A stretch of 64,000 nucleotides of DNA from the IMG/VR virus record IMGVR_UViG_3300025098_003626, positions 1 to 64,000 of that record, one strand, 5' to 3'. The notes beneath the pieces are model-generated. The model did no database searches and was not told the DNA's origin. It saw only the letters and a list, made by a program, of their open reading frames with translations. Position numbers and translations under genes: made by a program. This document shows positions 1,650-64,000 of the stretch, in pieces (positions within the stretch are counted from its first letter, which is position 1; each line of letters begins with the position of its first letter). This DNA comes from a virus.

Positions 1650-1991
1650 CTAGTGATTAAGTCTAATGCTGTTTACAGTACCATCTGTGTATACTAGTTT
1701 TGCTCTAATATAAACAAAGTTACCTGTAAAGTTAGCATATTTAACGTCTGTTTGATTAGCAACGGTTACAGTATCTACGTCAAACCAGTCAGCGTCTGCT
1801 GGTGTAGTGGCTAGTGTTGCTTGTATAGTGATCGAACCTGTAAGACCTGCATAATCATACTGTACAGTATGAATACCATCTGATCTTCCATAGTATCCGT
1901 CACCCTTAAAATTACTTCCGGTTACAGTTTCAGTCGTACTGTCCCCTGGATGTGTGTTTGCTGATAAAATTATTTCGCTTGTGCTTGGCAT
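1650..1991 (-). CDS. Small beta-rich putative structural protein
   Basis: The protein is 113 residues from the ATG at 1991 (starts MPSTSEIILS). A longer frame begins at 2024 but would run into the upstream gene, so 1991 is preferred. The sequence is rich in Thr, Val, Gly and aromatic residues in alternating patterns (TGSITIQATLATTP, VYIRAKLVYTDGTV), as in small beta-sandwich virion decoration or fibre proteins. A CATAAATA octamer ends exactly 5 bases before the ATG and no Shine-Dalgarno is visible, so the mRNA may be leaderless. The function is not recognised. Confidence 0.6.
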   Translation of the reverse strand: MPSTSEIILSANTHPGDSTTETVTGSNFKGDGYYGRSDGIHTVQYDYAGLTGSITIQATLATTPADADWFDVDTVTVANQTDVKYANFTGNFVYIRAKLVYTDGTVNSIRLNH

Positions 1992-1995
1992 AATA

Positions 1996-2682
1996 CTATT
2001 TATGCAAATCGTTGCGTGAAACATATTTTATCACACGACGGATTTGACCTCCTAATGCTATTTTTGCTAACATAAGGTAACGTTCATTTTTAGCATAGAA
2101 GTAAAACCCTTCAGCAAAATGATTGTTACGTACAACACGTTTAGCAACATTGCCTATTTTAAAGCCGTCTGGATTATTTTCACAGTAGTCTGCAAAATTA
2201 GGGTCAACTTTTTTACCTAGTAATGCTTTATATTGCCATACAACTTCCCCATCAACTAGTTCTGTGTTTGCATTTTGTAAAAGGTAATCAAATACATAAT
2301 CATTTTCAGGCTCATACCATTGTGTAGCATCAACTTGTTTTTGTAATTTTTCTAACCATTCAGGTTCGTTTGAATACATATCTAATGTGTATCCTTCGCA
2401 ACGTACCATAGCATGTCTTTTATTTTTTTCTAGTGCATTGTATAAAACACAAGCATCCATAAATGTTTCTAATGTAACAGTTGTATTATGTTTACGCAAC
2501 ACATGATTAAAAGGACTTTGTATAGGTAATTCTGCTTCAGCATCTCTCTGCATAGCATCTAGTTTTGATTTAACATAACCTAAGTTAAGTCCTCGAAAGA
2601 GCGATGCAATACCGCTCTTTACACGAAGTTTGTATAGGTACTTGTTATAGAATAACTTAGTTGTGTATAGCTTCTGTAACAT
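1996..2682 (-). CDS. Conserved-type phage hypothetical protein, 228 residues
   Basis: The protein is basic and largely helical, with many aromatic residues and no recognisable catalytic motif; the C-terminal third contains GNVAKRVVRNNHFAEG and ends in a basic tail. The ATG at 2682 has an AAAGGT-type ribosome site and overlaps the end of clpA by 26 bases, suggesting coupling to it. I do not recognise the family. It could be a DNA- or RNA-binding accessory protein, but nothing in the sequence proves that. Confidence 0.6.
   Translation of the reverse strand: MLQKLYTTKLFYNKYLYKLRVKSGIASLFRGLNLGYVKSKLDAMQRDAEAELPIQSPFNHVLRKHNTTVTLETFMDACVLYNALEKNKRHAMVRCEGYTLDMYSNEPEWLEKLQKQVDATQWYEPENDYVFDYLLQNANTELVDGEVVWQYKALLGKKVDPNFADYCENNPDGFKIGNVAKRVVRNNHFAEGFYFYAKNERYLMLAKIALGGQIRRVIKYVSRNDLHK
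1997..2004 (-). promoter_or_regulatory. Late promoter octamer CATAAATA
   Basis: CATAAATA on the minus strand matches the T4-like late consensus NATAAATA. It ends 5 bases before the ATG at 1991, placing the expected +1 on the start codon. Confidence 0.6.
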
Positions 2683-6190: not shown

Positions 6191-6471
6191 TATCTTTTCC
6201 CCTCAAGATGTTTGATACGCTTTTCAAGCTCATCTATTTTAGATGTAATTTTTGGATATTTCACACGCCAAGCATTTGGATCATTTTGTAACCATGTCCA
6301 ACCCCAACGTATTGCTAGGTATTCTAGTGTGGCATCAAACTTTGTTACAGCCCATGTTGCCATTTTTGTATCTTTGAACCAGAATAAAAATCCTGCACCA
6401 AATACTGATCCAGCTAATGCTGTATAAATCCATAAGCGATTGCTCGCCATTTGTTCAATCATTTCCCACAT
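6190..6471 (-). CDS. Small membrane protein in lysis cluster
   Basis: The 93-residue protein has one N-terminal membrane segment (about 12-32, YTALAGSVFGAGFLFWF) followed by a Trp-rich amphipathic part and a basic coiled-coil tail (KIDELEKRIKHLEGKR). It sits between a small lipoprotein and the holin-like gene, with a GAGGG ribosome site and a CATAAATA late octamer upstream. It could be an antiholin or a second holin component; the sequence alone does not decide. Confidence 0.6.
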   Translation of the reverse strand: MWEMIEQMASNRLWIYTALAGSVFGAGFLFWFKDTKMATWAVTKFDATLEYLAIRWGWTWLQNDPNAWRVKYPKITSKIDELEKRIKHLEGKR

Positions 6472-20986: not shown

Positions 20987-21508
20987 TTATCTCAAGAACT
21001 CTCTCCAATCCAGGTCAAACTGGATTGAATTAATTTTGTGTATACCTATTAAGTATAACACATATGATGCTACAGAGCTACCTCTACCTACTCCCCAAAC
21101 AATATTGTTCTCACGCATGAAGTCTACAAGGTAGATCATATACTGTAACAGTGGCATCATTCCTCTGCCTTCAAACTGTGCAAGTTCTTCTGCACATCTT
21201 GCTGTTTCGTCTTGTGTAGTACATTTTGTTAGAATATAGTTATGTACGTTTATCTTTTTATATTCATCAGGCATAAACCATTCACCTTGACATACACCGT
21301 CAAAAGTCTTTTGATCTACATCTAAAGGAATATATTTTTGTAGTTTATCAAAGCCTTGTTCTTCCATTGCTTTGTTAAACATATCTACATCATCAGATTC
21401 ATCACACAGAACTACATGACATTTATCAGCGTGTCCGCTATAAATCATGTCGACAAGGTCTTTATTGTTAAATCTCGGAATGCCGAGTGAGTCTGTTTTC
21501 ATAAGCAT
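20987..21508 (-). CDS. DnaE-like (DNA polymerase III alpha) fragment
   Basis: The 173-residue protein's C-terminal segment reads VWGVGRGSSVASYVLYLIGI followed by FDLDWREFLR. This matches the C-family polymerase GxGRGSxxGSLVAYLLGI...LLFERFLN region, but the protein stops just before the catalytic PDxDxDF motif, so it cannot be a polymerase. The N-terminal 110 residues are not recognisable. The -10 of its promoter ends about 7 bases before the ATG, so the mRNA may be leaderless or start at the second ATG (residue 3). It might bind DNA or a polymerase partner. Confidence 0.7.
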   Translation of the reverse strand: MLMKTDSLGIPRFNNKDLVDMIYSGHADKCHVVLCDESDDVDMFNKAMEEQGFDKLQKYIPLDVDQKTFDGVCQGEWFMPDEYKKINVHNYILTKCTTQDETARCAEELAQFEGRGMMPLLQYMIYLVDFMRENNIVWGVGRGSSVASYVLYLIGIHKINSIQFDLDWREFLR

Positions 21509-21514
21509 ACATGT

Positions 21515-21543
21515 ATTTTAACTGATATTAATCAGTTTGTCAA
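21515..21543 (-). promoter_or_regulatory. Sigma70-type promoter with dyad in spacer
   Basis: On the minus strand: TTGACA, 17-base spacer, TAAAAT. The spacer holds an inverted repeat (ACTGAT, 4 bases, ATCAGT; 21521-21536) that could be an operator. Confidence 0.7.
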
Positions 21544-37559: not shown

Positions 37560-37567
37560 TATTTATG
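37560..37567 (-). promoter_or_regulatory. Late promoter octamer CATAAATA for iscA and fibres
   Basis: CATAAATA on the minus strand lies 15 bases before the iscA ATG, with a GGAGAAGG site between. It is probably the main late promoter for iscA and the fibre operon. Confidence 0.65.
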
Positions 37568-37590: not shown

Positions 37591-37598
37591 AATAAATA
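37591..37598 (+). promoter_or_regulatory. Late promoter octamer AATAAATA, divergent
   Basis: AATAAATA on the plus strand ends exactly 5 bases before the ATG at 37604, so the mRNA is probably leaderless. It diverges from the iscA promoter. Confidence 0.55.
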
Positions 37599-37603
37599 CA
37601 ATT

Positions 37604-37891
37604 ATGTTCAAAAGAATTGAAAAAGAAGTGCGTTTTTACGTTCGTAAAAGTAAGACTGGAAAAAGTCATACATACAAACGCATACGTAGTTATGCTCTAT
37701 TCCAATGTGACGAGTGTAAAGAAGACTTTAAGAGAGAAAAGGGCAAAGTAGACCCAAAGCGTTTAGATAACTTCTATGTCCACGTTTGCCCAGATTGTGA
37801 TCCTAAGCGTTTTGCTCAACGTAAAGGTGTTGAACAGCGTAAGATATTAAACTTACCTGCAGGATCTAATATAAGGATTGACGAAATTTAG
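37604..37891 (+). CDS. Small zinc-finger-type protein
   Basis: The 95-residue basic protein has two CxxC pairs, CDECKEDF and CPDCDPKRF, separated by about 28 residues, forming a likely zinc ribbon. The N-terminus is very basic (KRIEKEVRFYVRKSKTGK). It is an isolated plus-strand gene between minus-strand late genes, with no Shine-Dalgarno and a late octamer abutting the start. It is a putative nucleic-acid-binding protein; the exact family is not recognised. It ends overlapping the convergent small membrane gene by 4 bases. Confidence 0.65.
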   Translation: MFKRIEKEVRFYVRKSKTGKSHTYKRIRSYALFQCDECKEDFKREKGKVDPKRLDNFYVHVCPDCDPKRFAQRKGVEQRKILNLPAGSNIRIDEI

Positions 37892-38261: not shown

Positions 38262-39331
38262 ATATCTCCTTTGGTTAAGTATTTATATAGTGCAATACTG
38301 GCTAGGTTTTTGCATTTAGACTCGCACATAATATCTGCATAGTCTAAAAACTGTAAGGCCCAATCGTTAACTACATTGTTAGGATAGTAGTCACTGTGGG
38401 CTCGTAATTTTGCTTTCTTGTATCCTGCTTCTAGTAGTGCAGGCATGTTGGGTTTTGTGTTGTGTGCAAAGTCTGCAGGCAATGCTTCGTTGCGACTGTA
38501 TGAATAATGTATTGTAGGTCGCACACCACGCCAGCTGTCTATTACGCGAGCAAATCTATCGTCGGTGGGCAGTATGTATTCACCTTCACGGCACCAGTGA
38601 TGGTGTATGTCAAGAACCAATGCACATGTGTCGACGAGCTCGAGTGAGTGTTCGAGTCCCCATTTGTTTTCGTCGTTCTCGATCGTGATACAGTTTCTCG
38701 CCTCCGGAGAAAGTCTGTTGTTGACTGCGTGTTTGATACCGGCTGGACCTTGCCTACCGGATATATGGACGTTGCATTTAAAGTCTTGGAAGGTACGCCC
38801 GTATCCCATCCACCTGATGACATCGGTGTGATATTCAAATTCTTCTATGCTCCTCTCAACTATTTCTTCGTTGTCGCTCGCAAGTACAGTAAATTGGCCT
38901 GGGTGCATCGATAGTCGGACATCGAGGGCTCTTGCTCTCTTACCGACGTTTGCAAAGTTACTTTCACAGTAGGCACGTACATCGGGCTTCTGCCAAAAGT
39001 AAGACCAATCTGCTTGCGTATATACTGGTAACACATCGCTACCCAGTCTAAGCATACGTAGTTCATTTGGTAATCCTCCTACATAGGTAATAAGATTCAT
39101 ATACGATTGTATATTGTGAACCATGATATCCCACAACCGTTGTTCGGCAACTTCACGTGTTTGTCTGTTAAGCCACTGTACTGTTGTGCTACGTGTATTT
39201 AGTGGTCGTTGAATTTCTTCTAGTAGTTTCTTTTTTTGTTCTTGGTCTGGATGCATATACTTGCAAGCAAAGCCGATACGTTGCTGTTGTGATTTCACAT
39301 AGTCTCCTGCTGTTGTAAATTTAAGATCCAT
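38192..39331 (-). CDS. UV-damage endonuclease UvdE-like
   Basis: The 379-residue TIM-barrel protein has the UvdE family pattern: RIGFACKYMH at the N-terminus, LSMHPGQFTVLAS, ENDENKWGLE (metal-binding Glu), LVLDIHHHWC and KLRAHSDYYPN. UvdE nicks 5' to UV photoproducts and starts an alternative excision repair, useful for a surface-ocean phage. The middle of the gene (about 38580-38900) is clearly richer in G+C than its surroundings, suggesting mosaic origin. A perfect consensus sigma70 promoter lies upstream inside the preceding gene. Confidence 0.9.
   Translation of the reverse strand: MDLKFTTAGDYVKSQQQRIGFACKYMHPDQEQKKKLLEEIQRPLNTRSTTVQWLNRQTREVAEQRLWDIMVHNIQSYMNLITYVGGLPNELRMLRLGSDVLPVYTQADWSYFWQKPDVRAYCESNFANVGKRARALDVRLSMHPGQFTVLASDNEEIVERSIEEFEYHTDVIRWMGYGRTFQDFKCNVHISGRQGPAGIKHAVNNRLSPEARNCITIENDENKWGLEHSLELVDTCALVLDIHHHWCREGEYILPTDDRFARVIDSWRGVRPTIHYSYSRNEALPADFAHNTKPNMPALLEAGYKKAKLRAHSDYYPNNVVNDWALQFLDYADIMCESKCKNLASIALYKYLTKGDIWQDKEDQQANKNQKTINELLTA
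38280..38287 (-). promoter_or_regulatory. Late promoter octamer TATAAATA
   Basis: A perfect TATAAATA on the minus strand, inside the uvdE 3' end, lies 18 bases before the 68-residue gene, with AAGGAGA between as ribosome site. Confidence 0.65.
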
Positions 39332-41469: not shown

Positions 41470-41498
41470 ATTATACTACAAATTGTTTAGCGTGTCAA
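41470..41498 (-). promoter_or_regulatory. Consensus sigma70 promoter for queD-like gene
   Basis: On the minus strand: TTGACA, 17-base spacer, TATAAT. It overlaps the last codons of the upstream gene. Confidence 0.75.
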
Positions 41499-42030
41499 GT
41501 GAAACATTATCCAATTTCCACTCTTTTGGCAGTTGCCAATCAGCTGTATTGTATATTCTAAATGTTGTCTTTGGAAACCATTCGAACACTTTGGCTATTT
41601 GATATATCCAATAACTGTGATCAACGGCATGTGAGTTAGCACTACTGTATCCTTCTGTGCCTTTGTATATATTATTAACTTTATTATTAGTACTATATAG
41701 ATCAAATCCTATAACATTAATTTTATTGTCAAGTGTTGCACCTAGAAGTAATGCGTAAGGTCCACTGCCCCAATGAAAGGGATCATCCATTCTTTGTGTA
41801 CCTTTTTCAATTAAACTAGGTAATGCTAATACACCTAATTCTTTGTTCCAACGTTGCCTAGTGTATATATTTTTGTGATGTGTTAGTGCTTGTTTAACCA
41901 TACGCTTGTCGCAACATACTAGATGCTGTACATAATGATCTCTAAAGATTGCATTACAGCCTATTTTTTCTTGATATATTTTGTCAAGAGGTATACTACT
42001 ACGGCTAGATCCGTTTCCAATTACTAACAT
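41476..42030 (-). CDS. Rossmann-type protein of a phage glycan-related family
   Basis: The 184-residue protein opens LVIGNGSSRSSIPLDKI, a glycine-rich nucleotide- or sugar-binding loop, followed by GCNAIFRDHYVQHLVCCD, a pattern known from phage and bacterial DUF115-like proteins near glycosyltransferases, and INVIGFDLYS. The function is unproven; proximity to PMM-like and GT-like genes fits glycan handling. A GCTAAATA late-like octamer ends 5 bases before the ATG with no clear ribosome site. Confidence 0.65.
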   Translation of the reverse strand: MLVIGNGSSRSSIPLDKIYQEKIGCNAIFRDHYVQHLVCCDKRMVKQALTHHKNIYTRQRWNKELGVLALPSLIEKGTQRMDDPFHWGSGPYALLLGATLDNKINVIGFDLYSTNNKVNNIYKGTEGYSSANSHAVDHSYWIYQIAKVFEWFPKTTFRIYNTADWQLPKEWKLDNVSLDTLNNL

Positions 42031-42035
42031 AAATT

Positions 42036-42043
42036 TATTTAGC
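42036..42043 (-). promoter_or_regulatory. Late-like octamer GCTAAATA
   Basis: GCTAAATA on the minus strand differs from NATAAATA at the second base. It ends exactly 5 bases before the ATG at 42030, the same spacing as other late starts here. Confidence 0.4.
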
Positions 42044-42931: not shown

Positions 42932-43351
42932 TTAACCTGATATTGCACCAAAAGATCTCCACTCACCTGGAGTACCAGTTCTAACACAAATCCAACCTAA
43001 GTTGCCGCCTGGGGTAGGTGCATCATGCCATACAATATCACCTTGATTGTAAAGACCAATAGTTGGGATACCGTCACCAACTTCCATCTTTTTGTTTTGA
43101 AACTTAACAGGTCCGTTAGTTTCTAATGCTACGCCATTTGATACTGCTGAAACACCAATTCCTACATTACCTTCAAATACTGTGTTTGAAGATCCTTGTA
43201 CTTTAAGTGTGCCGCCGCCATCAATAATAAGTCTTGATGTTGTATCGTCTCCAGCGATTTGATTGATTGATAGAAGTGCATTACCTAAACTGTTTAGACC
43301 TTCTTTAATTGCAAGAACGTTCTCTGCACTTATGTTTACTAATGCTGTCAT
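42932..43351 (-). CDS. Fibre-type protein, short paralogue
   Basis: The product has 139 residues from the ATG at 43351 (MTALVNISAENVLAIKEG), which overlaps the upstream stop; the longer frame runs into that gene. It has a helical N-terminus, a beta-rich middle (LIIDGGGTLKVQGSS) and a C-terminal module NQGDIVW...GWICVRTGTPGEW that is clearly related to the C-terminus of the adjacent upstream protein. It is a probable fibre or tail component made by duplication. Confidence 0.7.
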   Translation of the reverse strand: MTALVNISAENVLAIKEGLNSLGNALLSINQIAGDDTTSRLIIDGGGTLKVQGSSNTVFEGNVGIGVSAVSNGVALETNGPVKFQNKKMEVGDGIPTIGLYNQGDIVWHDAPTPGGNLGWICVRTGTPGEWRSFGAISG

Positions 43352-44415
43352 GCTTCTATCTTCCCAAATTGTTTCCATGTACCAGGTGCACCACTTTCTA
43401 CACATACCCAACCCATAAAGCCTCCTGCTTGTGGATTAGTATCGTATACAATATCACCTTGGTTGTTGTTTCCTGTAGTAGGCATTTCGTTACCTACTGC
43501 TAATCTTTTGTCTGCAAATCTAATTGCGCCTGCTACTTGTAAATCTACATCGTCACCTGGATACTGTACTTTAATACCTAGTGTGCCTTTTACTTCAACA
43601 CCGCCTTGTTCTTTAATAACAATACGTTCTTTGTTGTCTGTAATTAGACTCATTTTACTTGTAGTATATGCACCTACTCTAATATGATCAAACTCAGGAT
43701 CAACTACAAACTCTGCTTCGTTACTTGCTACACTTAATTGTGCATTAGGTGCTTCAGCACCAATAGCAAAACGCATTGTTCCACTATCGTATGTAACAAA
43801 TTCGTCAACACTTAGATCGCCTGCTATACGTAGACTGTTTAATGTTCCTACAGTTTCAAGTTCACTGTGCTTAACAGTAACACCTAACTTGTCTGCACTT
43901 AGTACAGGAATATTATCAATTTCAATTACTGCATTTCTATGTAGGTCAATTGTATTACTAATGTAGAATCTATCTCCACGCCATACAATTTGTTTAGTTG
44001 CTTCACCGTCTTGTCTCCATTGCATACCCATCATGTCAATGGTTCCGCCTTGAGCAGTAAAGTCAATATTTTGTGTAACTTTTTGTGTTGAACTTAGTTC
44101 TTCAACGTGTAGTTTGCCAGCAGTGAGAGTTCCCTGCACATTTAATGCTCCACTTACGTCAATGTCGCCTATTAGGCTATCAACGTCCATACTACCTACA
44201 GTAATCAAATCATCTTCTACAAGCAAACTAGTTCTAGTTGCTTTGTCATTGATACCTGTACTTCTAAGTAGTGTAATTTTACCGCCATGCACTGCATTAC
44301 CGCTAATACTGTTTACAGTTGCGGGTGGCATTTCTGCGGCTTGTGTGTTTGCTATGGTCTCAACAGTCGTTGCTAGACGTGCGAGGCCTTCTCTTATATT
44401 ATCTATCTGGCTCAT
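43348..44415 (-). CDS. Fibre-type protein, long paralogue
   Basis: The product has 355 residues from the ATG at 44415 (MSQIDNIREGLARLATTVET). A coiled-coil start is followed by repetitive beta sequence (GALNVQGTLTAGKLHVEEL) and a C-terminal module NQGDIVYDTN...GWVCVESGAPGTW shared with the next gene. A GATAAATA octamer ends exactly 5 bases before the ATG and there is no ribosome site, suggesting leaderless late expression. It is a likely virion fibre. Confidence 0.75.
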   Translation of the reverse strand: MSQIDNIREGLARLATTVETIANTQAAEMPPATVNSISGNAVHGGKITLLRSTGINDKATRTSLLVEDDLITVGSMDVDSLIGDIDVSGALNVQGTLTAGKLHVEELSSTQKVTQNIDFTAQGGTIDMMGMQWRQDGEATKQIVWRGDRFYISNTIDLHRNAVIEIDNIPVLSADKLGVTVKHSELETVGTLNSLRIAGDLSVDEFVTYDSGTMRFAIGAEAPNAQLSVASNEAEFVVDPEFDHIRVGAYTTSKMSLITDNKERIVIKEQGGVEVKGTLGIKVQYPGDDVDLQVAGAIRFADKRLAVGNEMPTTGNNNQGDIVYDTNPQAGGFMGWVCVESGAPGTWKQFGKIEA

Positions 44416-44420
44416 GTAAG

Positions 44421-44428
44421 TATTTATC
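44421..44428 (-). promoter_or_regulatory. Late promoter octamer GATAAATA
   Basis: GATAAATA on the minus strand overlaps the stop region of the 435-residue gene and ends 5 bases before the ATG at 44415. Confidence 0.6.
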
Positions 44429-50233: not shown

Positions 50234-50323
50234 TGGCGGAAGATGTAGGATTCGAACCCACGGTAGAGTCACCCCTACGACGGTTTAGTAAACCGCTCCT
50301 TTAAACCACTCAGGCAATCTTCC
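50234..50323 (-). tRNA. tRNA-Ser with ACT anticodon (class II)
   Basis: The acceptor GGAAGAT/ATCTTCC is perfect, G73, CCA encoded. A long variable arm (GTAG/CTAC stem) marks Ser. The anticodon stem GCGGT/ACCGT encloses TTACTAA, giving anticodon ACT where tRNA-Ser(GCT) is usual. A34 is rare in bacterial tRNAs. Confidence 0.85.
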
Positions 50324-50330
50324 AGTTTGT

Positions 50331-50338
50331 TATTTATT
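50331..50338 (-). promoter_or_regulatory. Late octamer AATAAATA before the tRNA cluster
   Basis: AATAAATA on the minus strand ends 7 bases before the 5' end of tRNA-Ser and overlaps the end of the glycine-zipper gene. It could start a tRNA precursor transcript. Confidence 0.45.
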
Positions 50339-56666: not shown

Positions 56667-56718
56667 TACTAACGAGCGTAATGCTTATTGGAAAGCGTAC
56701 TTACTTACTTCGAAGTAG
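56581..56718 (+). CDS. Small basic helical ORF, 45 residues
   Basis: The ATG at 56581 has GGAG upstream and encodes a helical, Lys/Glu-rich protein (YAQTANVKIPMEHYIAKLKE...). It overlaps the Cys-rich frame by 86 bases and the convergent cyclase stop by 14 bases. Either or both small frames may be used; this one has the better start signal. Confidence 0.45.
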   Translation: MMYAQTANVKIPMEHYIAKLKEHEAKRLSTNERNAYWKAYLLTSK

Positions 56719-58753
56719 CAATAAACACACCGGACCAGTCTTTAGGAAGGTCTTGTGTTTTCTGGAATTCACAACGTTCAATCCACATGTCATAGTATGC
56801 ACTCATTTTGCCATCAAAGTGGCTGTGTAGTGTATTACATAATTCTATTGCTTTGTCAAAGTCTTGTGCTAGATATGCTTTGTGCATTTCTTCATGCTTA
56901 CGTTGTGCTGTACGCCAAGCAGGGCGTCTATTATCTAACACTGTCCATATTGTAATACCTACAGTTTTACCTTTAACTGCTAAATCGTCGATTTTTAAAT
57001 AGAAAAAGTCGGTTTTAGTACGTTGGTATGTCGCATCTCCAACAAGTAATACACATCCGTATTCTTTACACTTGCTTTCAATACGAGCGGCTGTACTGAC
57101 TGAGTCTCCAAGGACGTCATAACTGTGTCGGGCTGTTGAACCCATCTCGCCAAGATAGCCAAGCCCAGTATTAATACCAGCCCCCATACCCACTGGGGGT
57201 CTTCCTTCTTTGGTAATCTTATCATTAAATATCTCCACTGCTTTTAACATATCCAATCCGCATTGTACTGCTGTCTTTGGATGTTGCGGATCTTCAATTG
57301 GTGCATTGTGTACGTGCATACTTGCATCGCCAATGTACTTAATAACCATACCGTCTGCGTCAAGTATAGGTTGTGTGATGGCATCCATGTAACCATTCAT
57401 AATTTTTGTTAGACCTTTTACATCATCACCAAATGATTCACCTAATGGTGTAAAGCCTCTTAGGTCTGAGAAACAAATTGAAACTTCTTTCTTCATACCA
57501 TCTTTTATAAGTGCAGGATTCTCTTGTAGCATACGTACTACTGTTGGTGATGCATATCCTGCAAACTGTTTTTTGATTGCTTGTTTCTGTGCATACTCAC
57601 TTACAAATCTATTAAAGATTGCATGTAAGCCTACTACAAATACAGTTACCATAGGCATTGTACCATCTAACAAGTACAAATAATTAACCCATGCATAATG
57701 TACACTATAGGTGAGTCCTCCCACAAACGCAACTAATATTCCTCCAGCCAACCAGTAAGGGGCAAACCTTCCAACGCACACCAGTGCTATGCCTAGTAGT
57801 CCGGTTGTGATAAGCTCTGCTAAGAATGCCCAATAGGGACGCTCAATTTGATCGCCATCTATCACAGTTTGAAGTGTTACTGCGGCCGGTATATAGTTGT
57901 GTTGTGGTCCAGTCGGACTAGCGATTAAACCACCTATGCCTTCTGCGGTTACTCCTATAATAACAGTCTTCCCTTCAAACGATCTATAATCATCTGAGGC
58001 CGCACTAATAGTTTCAAATTGTTTATTCCATCTCAACCATATCTGTGCATTAGGATCTGTTTTTATAATTGGGTAACCAGGAACTCGTACTGCTTCTATT
58101 CCACCACCAGCTTCTTTAACTTGGTAACTAGGGTTTCCTGTTGCTACACGAATAACTTCAATTGCTAAAGCGGGATACGTGTCTTCGCCGACACGCATTA
58201 GGAGTGGTACTCGTCTTACAACACCGTCGATTTCTGGGTTAGTGTTCAACACGCCCACACCGTCAGCATTATCTCCTAGCAATTGGATTGGTCCTAACAT
58301 TCCTGGCCATTCAAACATATATGGCACAGGATCACCAATTTTCGCAATGCCTCGAGGGACCGCATTACGATTGGCTTGGGTACTTCCTACTTGTGCTATT
58401 ACAACACCGTTACCCGCAAGTGCTTCAGCTAATTGAATATCACCACCTAGTCTATCTGTCTCAGACATGATAACAGGAATTACGATGATACCAGCACCTG
58501 CTTCGCGAAGTTTCCAGATTATATCTGCAATTATATCACGCTTCCAGGGCCATTGCCCGTACTTTTCAATGGCGGCTTCGTCAATGGTCACGATGCCGAC
58601 GTCCTGGGATAATGTTGCCTTATCAGTTTGTTGAAGTAAGTCGAATTGCTTAAGGCGAGCAGTCTGCACTAATTGACCATCTGTGTAATGCAGACCTATC
58701 ATAATGAACGCTGTGACAAACGCCACAGTCCAATGTGTAATATACTTCGTCAT
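56705..58753 (-). CDS. CHASE2-domain adenylate cyclase
   Basis: The 682-residue protein has an N-terminal membrane segment (about 8-23), a periplasmic CHASE2 sensor domain (about 28-290, with VGIVTIDEAAIEKYGQWPW and GKTVIIGVTAEGIGG), then three hydrophobic segments (about 305-375) and a cytoplasmic class III cyclase domain (about 425-610). Metal Asp residues are in FSDLRGFT and KYIGDASM; Lys in IKYIGD and Asp in YDVLGD fit adenylate rather than guanylate specificity. The usual Asn in GDxVN is Ser (GDSVSTAAR). A TPR-like tail follows. It would make cAMP in response to an envelope signal. A late octamer ends 4 bases before the ATG. Confidence 0.92.
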   Translation of the reverse strand: MTKYITHWTVAFVTAFIMIGLHYTDGQLVQTARLKQFDLLQQTDKATLSQDVGIVTIDEAAIEKYGQWPWKRDIIADIIWKLREAGAGIIVIPVIMSETDRLGGDIQLAEALAGNGVVIAQVGSTQANRNAVPRGIAKIGDPVPYMFEWPGMLGPIQLLGDNADGVGVLNTNPEIDGVVRRVPLLMRVGEDTYPALAIEVIRVATGNPSYQVKEAGGGIEAVRVPGYPIIKTDPNAQIWLRWNKQFETISAASDDYRSFEGKTVIIGVTAEGIGGLIASPTGPQHNYIPAAVTLQTVIDGDQIERPYWAFLAELITTGLLGIALVCVGRFAPYWLAGGILVAFVGGLTYSVHYAWVNYLYLLDGTMPMVTVFVVGLHAIFNRFVSEYAQKQAIKKQFAGYASPTVVRMLQENPALIKDGMKKEVSICFSDLRGFTPLGESFGDDVKGLTKIMNGYMDAITQPILDADGMVIKYIGDASMHVHNAPIEDPQHPKTAVQCGLDMLKAVEIFNDKITKEGRPPVGMGAGINTGLGYLGEMGSTARHSYDVLGDSVSTAARIESKCKEYGCVLLVGDATYQRTKTDFFYLKIDDLAVKGKTVGITIWTVLDNRRPAWRTAQRKHEEMHKAYLAQDFDKAIELCNTLHSHFDGKMSAYYDMWIERCEFQKTQDLPKDWSGVFIATSK

Positions 58754-58757
58754 ACTG

Positions 58758-58765
58758 TATTTATG
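58758..58765 (-). promoter_or_regulatory. Late promoter octamer CATAAATA before cyclase
   Basis: CATAAATA on the minus strand ends 4 bases before the cyclase ATG, so any transcript from it would be leaderless or start within the first codon. Confidence 0.5.
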
Positions 58766-63804: not shown

Positions 63805-63847
63805 AATATAACATACTTACGTATAGATAAGCATACTAAATACTTTT

Positions 63848-64000
63848 ATGACAACATATAAAGAAGAACAAGATGGATTATGGGCCGCATTAGACGAAGC
63901 ATTTCCTATCAACACTAAATTACAAACAAATCTCAATGATGAAGTTACTAAACTTGAAATGAGTCGTATAAGTGAAGCACTAAGAGAACATGATGGTAAT
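63848..64000 (+). CDS. Partial plus-strand gene at right edge
   Basis: Open from the ATG at 63848 to the window end; 51 residues are visible (MTTYKEEQDGLWAALDEAFP...), charged and helical. An ACTAAATA late-like octamer ends exactly 5 bases before the ATG and no ribosome site is visible. It is divergent from the curli module. Too little is seen to assign a function. Confidence 0.5.
   Translation, partial: MTTYKEEQDGLWAALDEAFPINTKLQTNLNDEVTKLEMSRISEALREHDGN

Follow-up and report, generated by a model that had tools for sequence, protein, structure and literature searches.

The question raised by this locus is where transcription begins when an octamer of the T4 late type ends only a few bases upstream of a start codon. 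In the window, i.e., the 64,000 nucleotides analysed here from a viral record of 67,277 bases, direct inspection of the sequence identifies six ATG codons preceded by the motif [AC]TAAATA (Table 1). An earlier sequence-only reading had located these octamers exactly five bases ahead of the ATGs at 1991, 37604, 42030, 44415 and 63848, and four bases ahead of that at 58753, and all six distances proved exact upon re-reading. The variant NCTAAATA, with CTAAATA, occurs at two of the six sites (42030 and 63848). The same reading had described these starts as devoid of a Shine-Dalgarno (SD) sequence, which agrees with the occurrence of an SD-like motif ahead of none of the six ATGs (0/6), and had regarded downstream in-frame starts provided with ribosome sites as the opposite outcome; within 40 codons after the six ATGs, no further in-frame start preceded by an SD-like motif was found.

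Table 1. Predicted late and sigma70-type promoters of the window and the open reading frames (ORFs) associated with them (gap, number of nucleotides between octamer and ATG).
Feature	Position	Strand	Remarks
Late octamer CATAAATA	1997..2004	-	spacer GTATT then ATG, gap 5
ORF 113 aa, start A at 1991, predicted leaderless	1650..1991	-	head/virion-like (phrog_13657, phrog_14467)
Late octamer AATAAATA	37591..37598	+	spacer CAATT then ATG, gap 5
ORF 95 aa, predicted leaderless	37604..37891	+	homologues in 5 relatives with gap 4/5
Late octamer variant GCTAAATA	42036..42043	-	spacer AATTT then ATG, gap 5
ORF 184 aa (phrog_30607), predicted leaderless	41476..42030	-	
Late octamer GATAAATA	44421..44428	-	spacer CTTAC then ATG, gap 5
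Tail-fibre-like ORF 355 aa, predicted leaderless	43348..44415	-	
Late octamer CATAAATA	58758..58765	-	spacer CAGT then ATG, gap 4
Adenylate/guanylate-cyclase-like ORF 682 aa, predicted leaderless	56705..58753	-	
Late octamer variant ACTAAATA	63835..63842	+	spacer CTTTT then ATG, gap 5
Small ORF, 51 codons to window edge, predicted leaderless	63848..64000	+	gap 5 in homologues of 4 relatives
Contrast: late octamer CATAAATA with leader and SD (AGGAGAAGGACATG)	37560..37567	-	
Contrast: late octamer TATAAATA with leader and SD	38280..38287	-	
Sigma70-type promoter TTGACA-N17-TAAAAT, 6 nt before ATG	21515..21543	-	similar layout recurs in relatives
ORF 173 aa, predicted leaderless from sigma70-type promoter	20987..21508	-	

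The window has 487 ATGs at the head of ORFs of at least 50 codons; [AC]TAAATA starts at -12 of five of them (Poisson P ~8e-7), compared to a mean of 0.16 and a maximum of 2 at the other offsets. The octamer is not over-represented in the window, where 4 occurrences of TATAAATA were counted for 8.65 expected; the signal consists of the position of the octamer, not of its number. Exact NATAAATA words also occur elsewhere in the window, several of them located farther upstream of SD-led ATGs (37567, 38287 and 63733, on the minus strand), and two classes of late genes, leadered and apparently leaderless, can thus be recognized at the sequence level. In addition, the +1 predicted from a late octamer AATAAATA (50323-50338, minus strand) precedes tRNA-Ser(act) by about 2 nt, and the tRNA cluster would then be transcribed with hardly any 5' extension.

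The register of the late promoters of T4 provides the key to the five-base gap. The first base of the T4 late octamer occupies position -13 (PMC2988020), and the structure of gp55 places the adenines of the octamer at -12, -9 and -8 (PMC7892883). With an octamer running from -13 to -6 in T4, a gap of five nucleotides makes the A of the ATG the predicted +1 position. Downstream of leadered octamers, the sixth base is predominantly a purine (76% in T4, 84% in cyanophages and 73% in the clade of the window), which marks this base as +1. A pyrimidine (C or T) stands just before the ATG in 77 of 79 cases, compared to 43% at SD-led ATGs (Fisher 2.5e-24, with counts that take in homologous sites of related phages and thus lack full independence), and represents the sequence signature expected of initiation on A. 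The sites with a gap of four nucleotides, the prevailing gap in some members of the cyclase family, with the spacers CAGT, CTGT and CGTT, do not fit the strict T4 register and would need initiation one base earlier to bring +1 onto the A.

According to the mechanism proposed here, these late promoters would be read by the RNA polymerase of the host, associated with a gp55-type sigma factor, and transcription from a -10-like octamer lying five, sometimes four, nucleotides upstream of the ATG would start on the A, to give an mRNA with 5'-AUG. Such leaderless mRNAs would probably be translated by ribosomes recognizing the 5' AUG directly, in the absence of SD pairing. An ordinary leadered late class, with an SD and an octamer at an upstream distance exceeding about 14 nt, is also present in these genomes. 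It is very probable that gp55-type late promoters in this marine phage of the T4 superfamily yield leaderless mRNAs starting at AUG, the 5' ends being predicted from the position, spacing and conservation of the octamer, the initiator context, the dependence on both ATG and ORF, and the missing SD.

The window is best called a fragment of an uncultured marine T4-superfamily phage. It contains a T4-type gp44 clamp loader, tail-fibre-like proteins, tRNAs and a weak gp9/10-like match, and its cyclase-like gene (682 aa) shares 65% identity with a gene of phage Melnitz and 45% with one of phage HTVC008M, while other genes match PA5oct-like, rhizobial or cyanophage proteins. Megablast of the window against phage records gave no match. 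A close relationship with Melnitz, suggested by the Kyanoviridae-like cyclase match, was dropped, as gp55, gp33, gp45 and gp23 of HTVC008M had no tblastn match in the window or in the fragments. No gp55 was found in the window fragment. Genes for gp55-type sigmas occur in the relatives G007, G008, G009 and G011 as well as in Melnitz and HTVC008M (by HMM for the large relatives), and G007, of 307 kb, possesses both gp23 and a gp55-type sigma. Since gp23 and gp55-type sigmas were found, by HMM, only in the large relatives, the clade of the window is considered a separate branch of the T4 superfamily, possibly composed of jumbo-sized phages. The gp33 co-activator, present in Melnitz, HTVC008M, T4 and DLP6, was not detected in the close relatives or in the clade of the window. 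The gp55-type sigma of G007 (248229-249008, minus strand), G008 (107936-108760) and G011 (114675-115454, minus strand) is a long protein (phrog_12791, about 285 aa) which carries additional N-terminal sequence relative to T4 gp55, in phages where gp33 was not detected. Five bS21-like ORFs (L159, L171, L178, L181 and L188) in the relatives G001-G005 display 37-49% identity with bS21 of HTVC008M, and a link with an unusual translation initiation is possible.

The count of octamer-to-ATG distances over related genomes, which had been proposed as a check, was carried out over the clade (13 related genomes or contigs) and yielded a sharp peak at five, a smaller one at four, a trough, and a broad SD-led class. 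Of 413 octamer-to-ORF pairs, which include homologous sites and are not fully independent, 73 have a gap of five and 19 a gap of four (92/413 together), 43 have another gap below 12, and 278 have a gap of 12 to 45. An SD-like motif accompanies 8 of the 92 starts at gap 4 or 5 compared to 216 of the 278 leadered starts. With ATAAATA followed by the ATG of a long ORF, the relatives show 59 cases at gap 5 and 23 at gap 4, for 0 to 5 at gaps 6-13, and 20 permutations of this word did not reproduce the peak. The excess at gap 5 is restricted to ATGs opening long ORFs: with ORFs of at least 50 codons, 73 ATG, 2 GTG and 2 TTG starts were counted, for 6 with short ORFs, and the gaps 6-13 before long-ORF ATGs account for 1 to 10 cases each, all these counts being subject to the same non-independence. 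A positional 7-mer scan without preset motif, also based on partly homologous sites, ranked ATAAATA at -12 among the strongest signals together with the SD (34 versus 4.4, and 11 versus 0.7 in Melnitz and HTVC008M); this signal was absent in T4. The non-independence of the counts is addressed by the conservation among orthologues and by the distribution of the 117 gap-4/5 sites, from 21 genomes or contigs compared, over 70 protein families. For comparison, octamers at gap 4 or 5 number 1/35 in T4, 1, 2 and 0 in the cyanophages S-PM2, P-SSM4 and Syn9, 0 in phiM12 and 4 in Rhizobium phage RHph_I1_18. The class of leaderless late mRNAs announced by the sequence-only reading is supported, as a prediction, but does not extend to T4 late promoters in general. 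In the distant contig G009 (L351-L362), 15 octamers without SD were counted at gap 4 or 5, which suggests that this placement is wider than the clade of the window.

Conservation among orthologues follows the same pattern. In the family of the 1991 gene, the gap of five occurs in 19 of 20 distinct orthologous upstream regions, with an identity of 0.97 for the octamer compared to 0.39 for the flanks. The cyclase family exhibits the octamer at gap 4 or 5 in 23/23 distinct upstream regions of relatives, the tail-fibre family (44415) a gap of five in 7/7 distinct orthologues, and the 42030 family [AC]TAAATA at gap 5 in about half of its members, the others having GTAAATA or TTAAATA at the same gap. 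As regards a -35 element, orthologues diverge upstream of the octamer, with an identity of 0.28-0.39 from -40 to -14. Protein conservation begins at the ATG in two families, with an identity of 0.40-0.50 for codons 2-11 versus 0.14-0.28 for the upstream frame. A subclade of the 1991 family (L236, L240 and L245) has CTAAATA seven nucleotides before the ATG instead of five, and no octamer was found in distant freshwater homologues of the 1991 gene.

In the isolate HTVC008M, all 12 gap-5 sites (12/12) coincide with deposited CDS starts and represent 12 of the 26 assignable octamers. They are located at 6280, 7562, 11972, 16007 (minus strand), 18916 (minus strand), 18943, 19456, 31132, 49760, 75559, 75830 and 142360. 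The corresponding genes include those for the DNA end protector, head closure, tail tube cap, tape measure, baseplate wedge subunit, tail completion, CsgF and cyclase. The divergent DNA-end-protector and head-closure genes (L007, 18914-18945) lie only 26 bp apart, and two abutting late octamers, each five nucleotides from its own ATG, fill this space, so that a leader of either gene would have to lie within the coding sequence of the other. This arrangement bears on the possibility that the octamer does give a leaderless mRNA but that translational coupling on polycistronic read-through mRNA supplies most of the protein. Read-through from upstream promoters could indeed yield leadered copies of these mRNAs as well. 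Some octamers reach into the 3' end of a co-directional gene located upstream, and that of 1991 overlaps the stop of the ORF at 1996-2682. However, the same layout is found at divergent genes without any adjoining upstream co-directional gene, both at 37604 and in the 26-bp region of HTVC008M, and a predominant contribution of coupling is considered unlikely.

A leaderless organization is also predicted beyond the octamers of the late type. The TTGACA/TATAAT-type promoters of the clade (G001-G012) have a -10 hexamer that peaks six nucleotides (5-7) before the ATG of long ORFs, and an SD accompanies 1 of the 39 sites at gaps 5-7 compared to 132 of 204 at gaps of at least 14. Because these sigma70-type promoters share the same peak, leaderless expression is probably a trait of the phages rather than of gp55 promoters alone, and it is probably not confined to late genes. 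A dedicated leaderless programme, operating via early (sigma70) and late (gp55) promoters, possibly tuned by ribosome changes such as a phage bS21, and allowing a subset of phage genes to escape SD-dependent translation control, is conceivable but rather doubtful.

A/U-rich leaders can support SD-independent initiation, and ATAAATA could accordingly be read as an A/U-rich RNA element recruiting the ribosome (e.g., by S1 or standby binding) within longer transcripts, as these starts have no SD. The permuted A/T words are not enriched, though, and the word is the gp55 octamer, which is found at a long distance ahead of SD-led genes as well; a spacing fixed to the single base and a pyrimidine at -1 correspond to what promoters would be expected to show, and sigma70-type promoters, with a different -10 word, adopt the same placement relative to the ATG, all of which makes an RNA element very improbable. 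Very improbable, too, is the view that the octamers are promoters but that the true start codon lies downstream, to give short leaders. Later in-frame ATG or GTG codons do occur in some ORFs, but all those within 40 codons lack an SD-like motif, two genes possess no later start within this distance, protein conservation begins at the ATG, and the gap of five is enriched only for ATGs with a long ORF. Both readings were rejected on this evidence, including the SD search and the permutations. Finally, that octamer-like words of AT-rich DNA fall five nucleotides before ATGs by chance, in a window of 63% AT where the plain TATAAATA count does not exceed expectation, is refuted, with hardly any residual probability, by the positional enrichment in the window, the peak across relatives that permuted words do not give, the octamer kept while its flanks diverge, and the ORF dependence.

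The preferred reading thus remains that of late promoters directing leaderless transcripts, predicted from the register, the gap peak, the initiator context and the conserved spacing, all of which support the original proposal of a start on the A of the ATG. The authors of the article describing Melnitz (MZ577095; PMC9004378) list 15 late promoters found with TATAAAT, and PMC7029224 reports that attempts to predict the middle and late promoters of pelagimyophages did not succeed; leaderless transcription is not discussed in the passages found in these two articles on Melnitz and HTVC008M (NC_020484). No 5'-end mapping for these phages was found in the literature searched. Leaderless T4-type late transcripts were likewise not encountered in this literature, which did not reach most subscription papers, and their novelty is thus only weakly supported. 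With gp55-type promoters placed on the start codon, this marine branch would represent a natural, conserved and large set of leaderless phage genes, useful for studying the competition of leaderless mRNAs for ribosomes during infection. It would also improve the annotation of start sites and promoters in an abundant group of ocean phages, where late-promoter prediction has reportedly failed (PMC7029224). The leaderless reading is open to testing in existing isolates.

In the textbook system of T4 late transcription, the late genes are provided with leaders and SD sites. Leaderless mRNAs are known from archaea and from the cI gene of phage lambda transcribed from PRM. They also occur in mycobacteria and corynebacteria (PMC4633059, PMC3890552). 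The likeness to these known cases lies in a promoter placed so that the transcript would begin with AUG, in the lack of SD and in the use of AUG only. However, lambda cI corresponds to one gene and one promoter state, whereas a recurrent class is predicted here within a T4-type programme, from both gp55-type and sigma70-type promoters. With the T4 late promoters (TATAAATA, gp55/gp33/gp45; PMC2988020, PMC7892883), the clade of the window shares the -10-like octamer and the register of +1. In contrast, 34 of the 35 octamer-to-ATG gaps of T4 are of at least 12 nt and mostly SD-led, whereas about a fifth of the assignable octamers of the clade, in which NCTAAATA is common, would give a +1 that coincides with the A of the ATG or is one base off.
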